DNA from: an uncultured Bacilli bacterium
Lineage (GTDB): Bacteria; Bacillota_I; Bacilli_A; RFN20; CAG-449
Reading direction: 5' to 3'
Length of the DNA stretch: 64,000 bases
NCBI GenBank assembly: GCA_944332075.1
Contig: CALVJL010000004.1
Location: forward strand, 1 to 64,000
Below the pieces are notes generated by a model that was not told the origin of the DNA, made no database searches, and saw nothing but the letters and a program-made list of their open reading frames with translations. This document shows, piece after piece, positions 50,505 to 53,551 of the stretch (its first letter is position 1; each line of letters starts with the position of its first letter). The translations under genes were made by a program, and so were the position numbers.

Positions 50505-50541
50505 TTAACAAAAAATATCTTGTTAAAAAATAACAAGATAT
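50505..50541 (-). terminator. Terminator of rtcB
   Basis: ATATCTTGTTA/TAACAAGATAT is an 11-bp stem followed on the minus strand by a T-run. Confidence 0.8.
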
Positions 50542-50573
50542 CAAAGGTAAAAAAAATCTAGCAAATTTTAATA

Positions 50574-51779
50574 TTAATGCGCTTTAAAATTGTAAAGAGG
50601 TTTGATTATTCTTATATCGTCTATTAGTAATGGAAGGTATTTTAAAATATCATTTTTATTTTTATATGCCTGAGGCGCTTCATCAATAGTAGTTTCTCCA
50701 ACCGAAGTCGAATAAATATTTTTCATCTCCTCTTTAAAATCAGCTAACGATATTTTATCTTTAGCATTCATTCTGCTAAGAGCTCTACCTGCTCCATGCG
50801 GCGCGGAACTATTATACTCTTGAATGCCTTTGCCAATTCCTAAAATACAACCATCGCGCATATTAAGAGGAATAATTACTCTTTTTCCAAGCGAGGCATC
50901 AATTGACCCTTTACGTAAAATTTTTTCTTCTAAATCAATATAATTATGAATACAAGTAAAACTATCGACTATTGCACAGTTTAAAAATTTGACGATTTTT
51001 TCCGCGATTAACTGGCGATTTCTAGCAGCAAATTTTTGAACTATCCCCATATCGTGAAGATAATTATCTAAATCTTGTCCTTCAAGATAGCATAAATCTT
51101 TATTTGGATAGACAATATTTTTAGCTAAGTTTTTCAAATTTTGGAGACGATCATTAATCAAGTTTTCTTGATTATGCAATAAGCAATCATCAATTATTTT
51201 CTGAGCTTCTAATCGATAATTGAAAATTTGATTAAAGGTATGATTAACCGCGATTTTTTGATAAATCTCGCAAACCTGTACGCCGAGACTACGCGATCCA
51301 CTATGAATAATAAGATAATGGTTACCTTCATTATCAACATCGATTTCGATAAAATGATTTCCACCACCGAGAGATCCTAAAGAACGAGTTAAATAATTAA
51401 TATCTCTAAGCTGACTAAAGCATCTTAACCCCTCTAAAGGAAAGTCTTCTAAGACTTCATCATTCACAGAAAATCCTGACGGAATATTCTGGTTAATAAA
51501 ATCATCTAAAGAAGGAAAATCAATATACTCTTTACCGAGATTAATCACCTCCATTCCACATCCGATATCGACACCGACTAAAGAAGGAACTACTTTATCA
51601 TTAATCGTCATAGTTAGTCCAATAACTGAACCTGTTCCTGAATGAACATCGCTCATAACAACAATATTTGATTCTTTTGAAAATGGCTGATTGACTAACT
51701 GCTGAATTTGCTGATAAGCTGTATCTTCTATAATATCTGCTAAAACTATTGCTTGGTTATATTGACCTTTAATTTGCAT
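50574..51779 (-). CDS. rtcB: RtcB-type RNA-splicing/repair ligase
   Basis: The 401-residue protein has the RtcB metal and nucleotide residues: DVHSGTGSV, Cys in VDIGCGME, GGGNHFIEID, IHSGSRSLG, HNYIDLE and the GMP-accepting His in SSAPHGAGRALSR. The enzyme joins 2',3'-cyclic phosphate and 5'-OH RNA ends with GTP and manganese. The ATG at 51779 is chosen because GAGGAG would touch the other ATG at 51788. It stands alone with its own terminator, divergent from a WYL-type gene. Confidence 0.93.
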   Translation of the reverse strand: MQIKGQYNQAIVLADIIEDTAYQQIQQLVNQPFSKESNIVVMSDVHSGTGSVIGLTMTINDKVVPSLVGVDIGCGMEVINLGKEYIDFPSLDDFINQNIPSGFSVNDEVLEDFPLEGLRCFSQLRDINYLTRSLGSLGGGNHFIEIDVDNEGNHYLIIHSGSRSLGVQVCEIYQKIAVNHTFNQIFNYRLEAQKIIDDCLLHNQENLINDRLQNLKNLAKNIVYPNKDLCYLEGQDLDNYLHDMGIVQKFAARNRQLIAEKIVKFLNCAIVDSFTCIHNYIDLEEKILRKGSIDASLGKRVIIPLNMRDGCILGIGKGIQEYNSSAPHGAGRALSRMNAKDKISLADFKEEMKNIYSTSVGETTIDEAPQAYKNKNDILKYLPLLIDDIRIIKPLYNFKAH

Positions 51780-51850
51780 AGTAATCATCTCCTCACTTAT
51801 ATTATCTTGTATCTATTTCTTCGAAAAAATGGTGAGATTAACCATTTATT

Positions 51851-51861
51851 TGACCCCTTTT
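51851..51861. repeat. Direct repeat 1 between rtcB and the WYL-like gene
   Basis: TGACCCCTTTT, preceded by TTTATT, is repeated exactly at 51895-51905, 44 bases away, about four helical turns. This is a likely operator pair. Confidence 0.5.
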
Positions 51862-51894
51862 TCTCTAGTTTTTTAATTATTTTTTCTTTATTTA

Positions 51895-51905
51895 TGACCC
51901 CTTTT
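51895..51905. repeat. Direct repeat 2 between rtcB and the WYL-like gene
   Basis: This is the second copy of TGACCCCTTTT, also preceded by TTTATT(TA). It lies 30 bases before the start of the WYL-like gene. Confidence 0.5.
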
Positions 51906-51934
51906 AATGGTATATTAACTTTGAGGTGATAAAG

Positions 51935-52903
51935 ATGGAAGAAAAAATTAAAATAAATATTTCTCCAATGACAATGGAAATATTAAGTAACGACATGGAA
52001 AAATTTTCGTTTTCTAAAAACAATAAACTGCAGCAGAACGCTTTTCTTAATATTTTGATTAATAATTATTATCAAGAGTTTATTAAGACAAAAGAAAACC
52101 AAATAAATTTAATTGAAAACGTATTAAGAGATTGCGATAAGGACTCAAAATCATTAGCAGCTTTAATTGCAGAAAAATTAGCTAAAAATGATACAAAAGA
52201 TTTAAAGCCATTTTCAGTTACGCTTAATTTTAAGCCTTCGCATATCGCTTCATCAGCAATTGAATATATTTGCTATTATTGTTTAAAAGATTATTCCCTC
52301 TCGGAATTCTTAAGGATGCTATTAGTAAGTTATACCCGTCTCCATCCTCTAGTACGAGAAAAAATAATTTTTAAAGATTTCGTTGAGAATATTAATCAAT
52401 CTATTAAAAAAGGAGTTAATATTATCTATCGTTTAAAAGAAAATTCTTCACTTAAACAAGGCCGTCCAATCGTCATGGTTAATAGCAAAGAAGAACTTTT
52501 CAATTATGTAATCTTAAAAAAAGAAGATGCTATTATTTCTGTAAAACTATCCAATTTCAAGTATATAAACTTAATTAAAGAACATTATGATCTAAGTCAA
52601 AAAGACTTAGATATAGTTGAAAAAATGCAAACTAATAATCCTTCTTTCCTCTACCAAGGAAACGAAGAAGAAATCCATGTTAAATTAACTTATGAAGGAG
52701 AAAAAATGTATTTGTCGCATTATATTCATCGTCCTCCTTACTTAAGAAAAGAAAACGGGAATTATTACTTTAACTGCAGTTATTTTCAAGCTTATATCTA
52801 TTTTCAACGTTTTGGGAAAGAAGCAATAATTATTTCGCCTAAATCTTTGCAGAAAAAATTATTATCTTTTTATCAAAAAGCAGTTATAGCAAATTCAAAA
52901 TAA
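51935..52903 (+). CDS. Putative RHH/WYL-type transcription regulator
   Basis: The roughly 322-residue protein has two N-terminal strand-helix-helix patterns that resemble ribbon-helix-helix motifs (IKINISPMTMEILSNDMEKF near 5-50 and PFSVTLNFKPSHIASSAIEY near 95-145). A middle part follows, and the C-terminus is typical of WYL proteins (YFQRFGKEAIIISPKSLQKK). WYL domains bind ligands or nucleic acid ends and control DNA- or RNA-damage responses and CRISPR accessory genes. No CRISPR is seen here. The start at 51935 has GAGGTG. It is divergent from rtcB and probably regulates it. The assignment is by pattern only. Confidence 0.6.
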   Translation: MEEKIKINISPMTMEILSNDMEKFSFSKNNKLQQNAFLNILINNYYQEFIKTKENQINLIENVLRDCDKDSKSLAALIAEKLAKNDTKDLKPFSVTLNFKPSHIASSAIEYICYYCLKDYSLSEFLRMLLVSYTRLHPLVREKIIFKDFVENINQSIKKGVNIIYRLKENSSLKQGRPIVMVNSKEELFNYVILKKEDAIISVKLSNFKYINLIKEHYDLSQKDLDIVEKMQTNNPSFLYQGNEEEIHVKLTYEGEKMYLSHYIHRPPYLRKENGNYYFNCSYFQAYIYFQRFGKEAIIISPKSLQKKLLSFYQKAVIANSK

Positions 52904-52963
52904 AATTGAAAAAATATTACACCAGCTATATAATAATTGTATTATTAAATTGTGAGGGTGTTT

Positions 52964-53551
52964 ATGAAATCTGATTCGCGAATCTTTAAATCGAAGACAG
53001 CTTTAAAGAAAGCGCTTGTTATATTACTTGCTAATCAGCCTTTTAACGAAATTACTGTTCAGGATATCTGTCATACCGCCAATGTTACAAGAGTAACCTT
53101 CTACGCACACTATCATGATAAAGAAAGCTTGATGCACGATCTTATTGAAGATTCTTTAAACGATATTTTTTCTTTCGGTAAAGAGCTTAATAGTTTATCC
53201 TTCAAAGAGCAAATATCCTATATTGTTACAATGATATTTTCAAATACAATCGATAAAATCGCTCAATATAAAAGCATAGAAAAAATTTTTGATTGCCAAG
53301 GTGATTCCTTAATCGTTCATATGCTTCAATTAACCGCTATGAATAAAATTGTAAAAAATCTTGATGCTTTCCTAATTAAAAGCAACGAGGAATTTGCCTA
53401 CCATTCATCATTAATCGCTTCGTATTTAATGGGAGGAGTAACTGAAATGATTCACTATTATATAGTTAATCACGATAAAATCTCCGTTGACGAATTAAGA
53501 AAATACGGAGCGTTAATTATCAATAGAAGTTTAAAAGCCTTACTTTCCTAA
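52964..53551 (+). CDS. TetR-family regulator
   Basis: In this 195-residue protein, residues 5-55 are a TetR HTH (FNEITVQDICHTANVTRVTFYAHYHDKESL). The C-terminal helices are of the TetR_C type seen in small Firmicutes regulators. The start at 52964 has a GAGGG site. It ends 12 bases inside the convergent hydrolase gene, which could be its target, but no operator is recognised. Confidence 0.9.
   Translation: MKSDSRIFKSKTALKKALVILLANQPFNEITVQDICHTANVTRVTFYAHYHDKESLMHDLIEDSLNDIFSFGKELNSLSFKEQISYIVTMIFSNTIDKIAQYKSIEKIFDCQGDSLIVHMLQLTAMNKIVKNLDAFLIKSNEEFAYHSSLIASYLMGGVTEMIHYYIVNHDKISVDELRKYGALIINRSLKALLS

Follow-up and report, generated by a model that had tools for sequence, protein, structure and literature searches.

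The 322-aa protein encoded divergently from rtcB, the gene of an RNA 3'-phosphate ligase, in an uncultured Bacilli bacterium belongs by fold to the ribbon-helix-helix (RHH)-WYL proteins of the RspWYL1 type. Twin direct repeats lie in the promoter shared by the two genes, and both the pairing with rtcB and the twin sites recur among relatives. These observations point, with a probability that we put at about 0.7, to a transcription regulator whose RHH dimer sits on the twin sites and controls its own gene and rtcB, probably by repression until a ligand arrives. Its homologues face several kinds of RNA-related partners, and the protein is best understood as a switch that acts locally on cassettes for RNA repair or RNA stress and on its own gene, possibly in response to an RNA or nucleotide ligand.

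rtcB and the RHH-WYL gene are divergent neighbours

The window, i.e. the whole 64,000-nucleotide stretch analysed here, comes from a MAG-type draft assembly of 1.47 Mb (G000), and all genomes compared with it are draft assemblies as well. A genome-wide search of G000 found a single RtcB, the product of this rtcB, in which VGVDIGCGM, GGGNHF, HSGSRSLG and PHGAGR can be read; we take these to be the catalytic Cys/His motifs of RtcB. rtcA is not adjacent to rtcB at this locus. An operon of rtcB with the downstream genes prfA and prmC was rejected because a hairpin with a U-run lies in between (Table 1), for which a GC-based terminator scan had no entry. The regulator gene is separated from rtcB by 146 bp, and a sister genome keeps the same locus with a regulator 88% identical to that of the window; a search of genome contigs with the single regulator protein found two loci. 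A gene for a TetR/DhaS-like regulator (52952-53551) lies 3' of the RHH-WYL gene on the same strand, likewise in the sister genome.

Table 1 Features of the rtcB locus, promoter repeats of homologues and divergent partners (G, genome; C, contig)
Feature	Position or genomes	Strand	Basis or remark
Probable intrinsic terminator of rtcB, AT-rich 12-bp hairpin and U-run, before prfA	50511..50545	-	fold z-score -3.3
rtcB, RNA 3'-phosphate ligase, 404 aa	50574..51788	-	PF01139, E 7.8e-56; intact open frame
Shared divergent promoter region, 146 bp	51789..51934	.	ORF ends
Possible -10 of rtcB (GATAAT)	51801..51806	-	read from sequence; alone not above chance
Repeat 1, proposed operator site nearer rtcB, TGACCCCTTTT	51851..51861	+	exact repeat; counterpart pairs upstream of homologues
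Repeat 2, proposed operator site nearer regulator, TGACCCCTTTT	51895..51905	+	exact repeat; counterpart pairs upstream of homologues
Possible -10 of regulator gene (TATATT), just past repeat 2	51911..51916	+	read from sequence; alone not above chance
RHH-WYL regulator, 322 aa, ATG at 51935	51935..52903	+	family profile against 6oaw RspWYL1, E 2.8e-26
First ribbon-helix-helix unit, aa 1-65	51935..52129	+	predicted strand 5-9, helices 11-23 and 31-65; aligned to RspWYL1 from residue 26
Second ribbon-helix-helix unit, aa 93-135	52211..52339	+	predicted strand 95-99, helices 106-116 and 122-134
WYL and C-terminal (WCX-like) region, aa 145-316	52367..52882	+	PADLOC WYL, E 2.9e-5; PF13280/PF25583 in family members
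Homologue promoter repeat GACCCC	G002		
Homologue promoter repeat GGACCCC/AGACCCC	G012		
Homologue promoter repeat GTACCC	G003, G004, G006		
Homologue promoter repeat TGACCCC/GAACCC	G152		
Homologue promoter repeat TGACCCC, twice	G159		
Homologue promoter repeat TTTTGACCA	G040		
Homologue promoter repeat ACCACAAAA	G033		
Homologue promoter repeat AAGTGTTCC	G023		
Homologue promoter repeat TTGTTACCA	G004, second copy		
Partner rtcB, directly divergent	G000, G002, G009, G012, G054:C42		5 loci
Partner DUF2828 then rtcB, divergent	G031, G033		2 loci
Partner DUF2828 alone, divergent	G034, G076, G149:C6		3 loci
Partner MXAN_6230/SCO0854-like protein, divergent	G004, G006, G040, G149:C1, G152		5 loci
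Partner ROOL RNA, divergent	G023, G054:C128, G147, G149:C5, G150, G157, G159, G246, G248, G251		10 loci

The regulator has the fold of RspWYL1

Searched alone, the regulator had no Pfam match, resembled RspWYL1 (PDB 6oaw) weakly (E 0.0015) and matched the PADLOC WYL profile with residues 145-316. A profile of its family, built from the 26-member alignment A1 (the regulator and 25 homologues), aligned nearly full length to 6oaw (positions 7-327 to residues 26-390) and to no other PDB chain significantly; PF13280 (WYL) was found in 10 and PF25583 (WCX) in 11 of the 26 members. In RspWYL1, one chain carries two RHH motifs in its N-terminal half, then the WYL domain and a C-terminal domain for dimerisation (PMC6547453), the same order as in the regulator. 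Foldseek analysis of an AlphaFold2 model, made from a three-sequence alignment and of moderate confidence (mean pLDDT 65), placed both 6oaw chains at the top of the PDB list (E 4e-9), with DriD and PafBC next and weak. The initial annotation had described two RHH-like parts and a WYL-like end, had proposed kinship with Cas13d accessory proteins and had named a profile search for these domains as a check, with the lack of a match as a refutation; family profile, predicted model and Foldseek list all bear out this domain order, with RspWYL1 as the best structural match.

RspWYL1 itself is an accessory of type VI-D CRISPR-Cas13d. Neither Cas13d nor a CRISPR array lies beside the regulator, whose neighbours are rtcB and housekeeping genes, and the protein is thus a relative of RspWYL1 and not a Cas13d accessory. 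Whereas published descriptions make RspWYL1 a booster of Cas13d that binds ssRNA, and not a DNA-binding regulator, the window protein faces rtcB. The reported preference of RspWYL1 for ssRNA and its action on Cas13d (PMC6547453) nevertheless count against a regulator of transcription, and the protein might instead be a post-transcriptional helper that captures ssRNA and passes it to RtcB, to a DUF2828 protein or to ROOL, the repeats serving its own expression only. In favour, RspWYL1, the nearest relative with a solved structure, has a high affinity for ssRNA and enhances the activity of an RNA enzyme (PMC6547453), the recurrent partners of the family (Table 1) are RNA-related, and a Lys/Arg is retained across the family in the strand of the second RHH unit, at the position of the Arg that RspWYL1 needs for ssRNA binding (profile alignment; PMC6547453). 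However, divergent genes with a shared promoter are typical of a regulator and the gene that it controls, the twin repeats are conserved in the promoters, the partners are chemically dissimilar (an enzyme, a vWA protein, a TerD-like protein and a non-coding RNA), and those of distant relatives, JetA and ClpP, are no RNA enzymes. We therefore regard an RNA-binding helper as quite unlikely.

Twin repeats mark the shared promoter

The initial annotation had pointed to two identical 11-base repeats, 44 bases apart, in the shared promoter. Indeed, both copies of TGACCCCTTTT are exact and 44 bp apart, start to start (0.01 expected in the window), and they are the only two in the whole 1.47-Mb genome, where the reversed control has none; they are thus a specific feature of this promoter. 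Twin direct repeats recur upstream of homologues at distances of 39-56 bp, with letters specific to the lineage and the cores GACCCC, GTACCC, ACCAC, GTGTTCC and GTTACCA. In a simple test against 60 shuffles that preserved dinucleotides, the repeat pair scored above every shuffle in 13 of 30 homologue promoters; about half of the 30 had no significant pair by this test, which counts against the regulator reading, as do the weak promoter boxes within the 146 bp. Because the twin repeat is kept whatever the neighbouring gene, it belongs to the regulator and not to rtcB, and its most likely role is that of an operator for the regulator itself. By eye, many homologue promoters show a weaker third element of the type GGTGnnA on the divergent-gene side of repeat 1, at a distance of about 22 bp (e.g. 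51828-51850 in the window), and it may form an imperfect inverted site with repeat 1. An RNA hairpin in the intergenic region was rejected, the fold being no better than that of shuffles.

In the mechanism that we propose, the paired RHH units of the dimer would bind the twin TGACCCCTTTT sites, and the bound dimer would control its own gene and rtcB, most likely repressing both. Binding of a signal to the WYL/C-terminal part would cause release, the probable candidates being a short single-stranded RNA and a nucleotide product of RNA damage; rtcB would then be expressed and RtcB would ligate broken RNA. We infer DNA binding, and repression seems favoured over activation by roughly two to one. 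The ligand could plausibly be a nucleic acid, given that RspWYL1 binds ssRNA (PMC6547453) and that DriD, whose structures in the fold list show a response to ssDNA, was solved with it; that the ligand is RNA has, in our estimate, less than an even chance. The initial annotation had suggested RNA-damage sensing, with cyclic-phosphate RNA ends as a candidate ligand.

Alternatively, the liganded protein might act on rtcB as an activator, recruiting RNA polymerase from the twin sites like DriD or PafBC and repressing only itself. DriD and PafBC, the next solved WYL relatives in the fold list, are activators, and the possible -10 of rtcB is preceded by repeat 1 at a distance of about 45-50 bp. In contrast, the position of repeat 2, within or next to the promoter of the regulator gene, fits self-repression, and repression is the mode of known defence WYL regulators with a single target, such as CapW (PMC9122588), so that activation appears doubtful. 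CapW also illustrates that WYL regulators with other DNA-binding domains control defence genes (PMC9122588). Like BrxR and CapW (wHTH-WYL-WCX; BREX and CBASS), the proposed repressor joins a WYL domain to a WCX-type C-terminal part and would exert local control of one cassette. BrxR, CapW, PafBC and DriD have an N-terminal winged helix, whereas the window protein has paired RHH units and its putative sites are spaced direct repeats.

The pairing with rtcB recurs, and rtcB is one partner among several

A conserved link with rtcB had been set beforehand as a check on the initial annotation, and the absence of one as a refutation. Such a link was found: the regulator adjoins rtcB or sits one gene away in 7 of the 11 genomes of the order that carry this rtcB clade (G000, G002, G009, G012, G054, G031 and G033), within about 2 kb, though the proteins are only 26-36% identical at the lowest. 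G001, of the same genus, has rtcB and lacks the regulator, which counts against the regulator reading, and a remoter rtcB group in the order (33-38% identical) shows no linkage to the regulator. That regulator and rtcB are unrelated neighbours might be argued from the rearranged MAG genomes and from the homologues in G030, G036, G068 and G088, which have no recognisable partner; with chance proximity well under 1% per genome, the recurrence in 7 of 11 genomes refutes this in practice and leaves it highly improbable.

Homologues of the regulator were found in 35 of 279 genomes of the order, and 32 of their loci were read for neighbours. A divergent partner (rtcB, DUF2828 with or without rtcB, an SCO0854/TerD-like protein or ROOL) was recognised at 25 of the 32 (Table 1); among the seven loci with none of these, that of G142 has ROOL 2.5 kb off. 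G149 carries three paralogues, each opposite another partner type, and G054 carries two. Beyond the order, a homologue in G608 lies opposite ROOL and one in G595 tail to tail with DUF2828. Partner types cluster in the tree, yet do not form single clades, with L064, L091 and L092 on long branches; counted on well-supported branches, the rtcB pairing requires at least two changes and the ROOL pairing at least three. The rtcB pairing was thus gained or lost more than once, and the repeated acquisition or loss of the same few partners argues for functionally equivalent targets. Remoter RHH-WYL relatives (L121, L117, L107) adjoin Wadjet JetA, a SIR2-STAND protein and ClpP, which suggests that the wider family is associated with cassettes for defence or stress. 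There is no support for an origin of the regulators in phages: scans of IMG/VR with different family members, able to detect close matches alone, found no homologue, the regulators have no PHROGs match, and no phage contig carries a close homologue.

These neighbourhoods also bear on the proposal that the protein takes the place of RtcR, the activator of proteobacterial rtcBA. RtcR is likewise a divergent regulator of an RNA-repair ligase gene and responds to damaged tRNAs (PMC7790460), but it combines a CARF domain with a sigma-54 AAA+ activator (PMC4012209, PMC7790460), neither of which the window protein has. The divergent position and the conserved link with rtcB stand; an rtcB-dedicated replacement of RtcR does not, because DUF2828, SCO0854/TerD-like proteins and ROOL are equally or more frequent partners and remote relatives adjoin JetA, SIR2-STAND and ClpP, as in a family of local switches. 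RNA repair by RtcB would have, in addition to RtcR, a kind of regulator with no structural relation to it, and RspWYL1 would be placed in a wider family of promoter-linked switches. In the papers searched, coverage of which was partial so that an earlier remark is possible, RspWYL1-type proteins were not found as divergent regulators of rtcB, DUF2828, SCO0854-like genes or ROOL.

DUF2828 and SCO0854-like partners

All five DUF2828 members that are at least 53% identical to the query clade face a regulator, whereas seven others (40-43%) do not. In a profile comparison, DUF2828 matched a TROVE protein with a probability of 79.5 (P 1.5e-5; unrelated control, 0.1), which suggests a Ro60-like vWA protein, with kinship seen in the vWA half only; the helical half was not detected. 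Two tandem hairpins were observed in the 5' leaders of the DUF2828 genes at L062, L063, L073, L078 and L082, where ACAGCAA is conserved on their 5' side and, in the ten copies, two pairs of an 8-bp stem are compensated. They have no Rfam match and are possibly a Y-RNA-like partner of the Ro-like protein, or a leader element. Three of the MXAN_6230/SCO0854-like partners were tested against NCBIfam NF041916 and matched at E 1e-61 to 1e-77, under the 600-bit cut-off; the others were assigned by homology. Those opposite the regulator at L075, L076, L077, L085 and L094 have 705-735 aa and, by eye, a TerD-like stretch.

ROOL RNA is a recurrent divergent neighbour

ROOL, an abundant RNA that forms cages, is described as having no known function or protein partner and as a phage or prophage RNA near tRNA islands (PMC12286853). 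Ten ROOL loci beside homologues scored 113-216 bits over the full model (1-574) of Rfam RF03087, the gathering cut-off of which is 99.1. ROOL is divergent from the RHH-WYL gene at L080, L081, L083, L086-L089, L095, L079, L028 and L112, all in chromosomes and not in recognised phages. A 97-position model of the ROOL 3' part counted 36 ROOL genes in 32 of 273 genomes of the order, 10 of them with the regulator divergently next door, a count of adjacent cases that is not unbiased because the model was built partly from these loci. ROOL and regulator occur in the same genome 14 times against about 4 expected (Fisher p 2e-6, kinship uncorrected and with the same training of the model). The other 19 ROOL genes whose upstream side was read share no common neighbour, except for one acetyltransferase-type gene in the three genomes of the window's genus.

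More tentatively, and with clearly less confidence than in the switch at rtcB, we propose that RHH-WYL proteins are RNA-damage-responsive transcription switches, each with its own twin operator, and that ROOL is one output: a cage RNA that would be produced, like RtcB, the Ro60-like DUF2828 protein and the TerD-like protein, in response to one kind of stress, as part of a bacterial RNA-repair or RNA-storage response. By extension, RspWYL1 may primarily regulate its Cas13d cassette. The searched papers, again with partial coverage, contain no tie of ROOL to any regulator or protein partner. ROOL gains a recurrent genetic neighbour whose other targets would be RNA-repair and RNA-quality genes. 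This offers a first lead on the conditions that may switch ROOL on, the timing of its expression being testable through a small protein and a short promoter.

Control of ROOL by the window's own regulator was rejected: the ROOL gene of G000 faces another gene on another contig, with no TGACCCC within 19 kb, and being away from the locus and without these operators it gives no sign of such control. This one ROOL gene of the genome (G000:C9:30734-31274, L097) lies opposite an acetyltransferase gene, an arrangement also present in the two other genomes of the genus.
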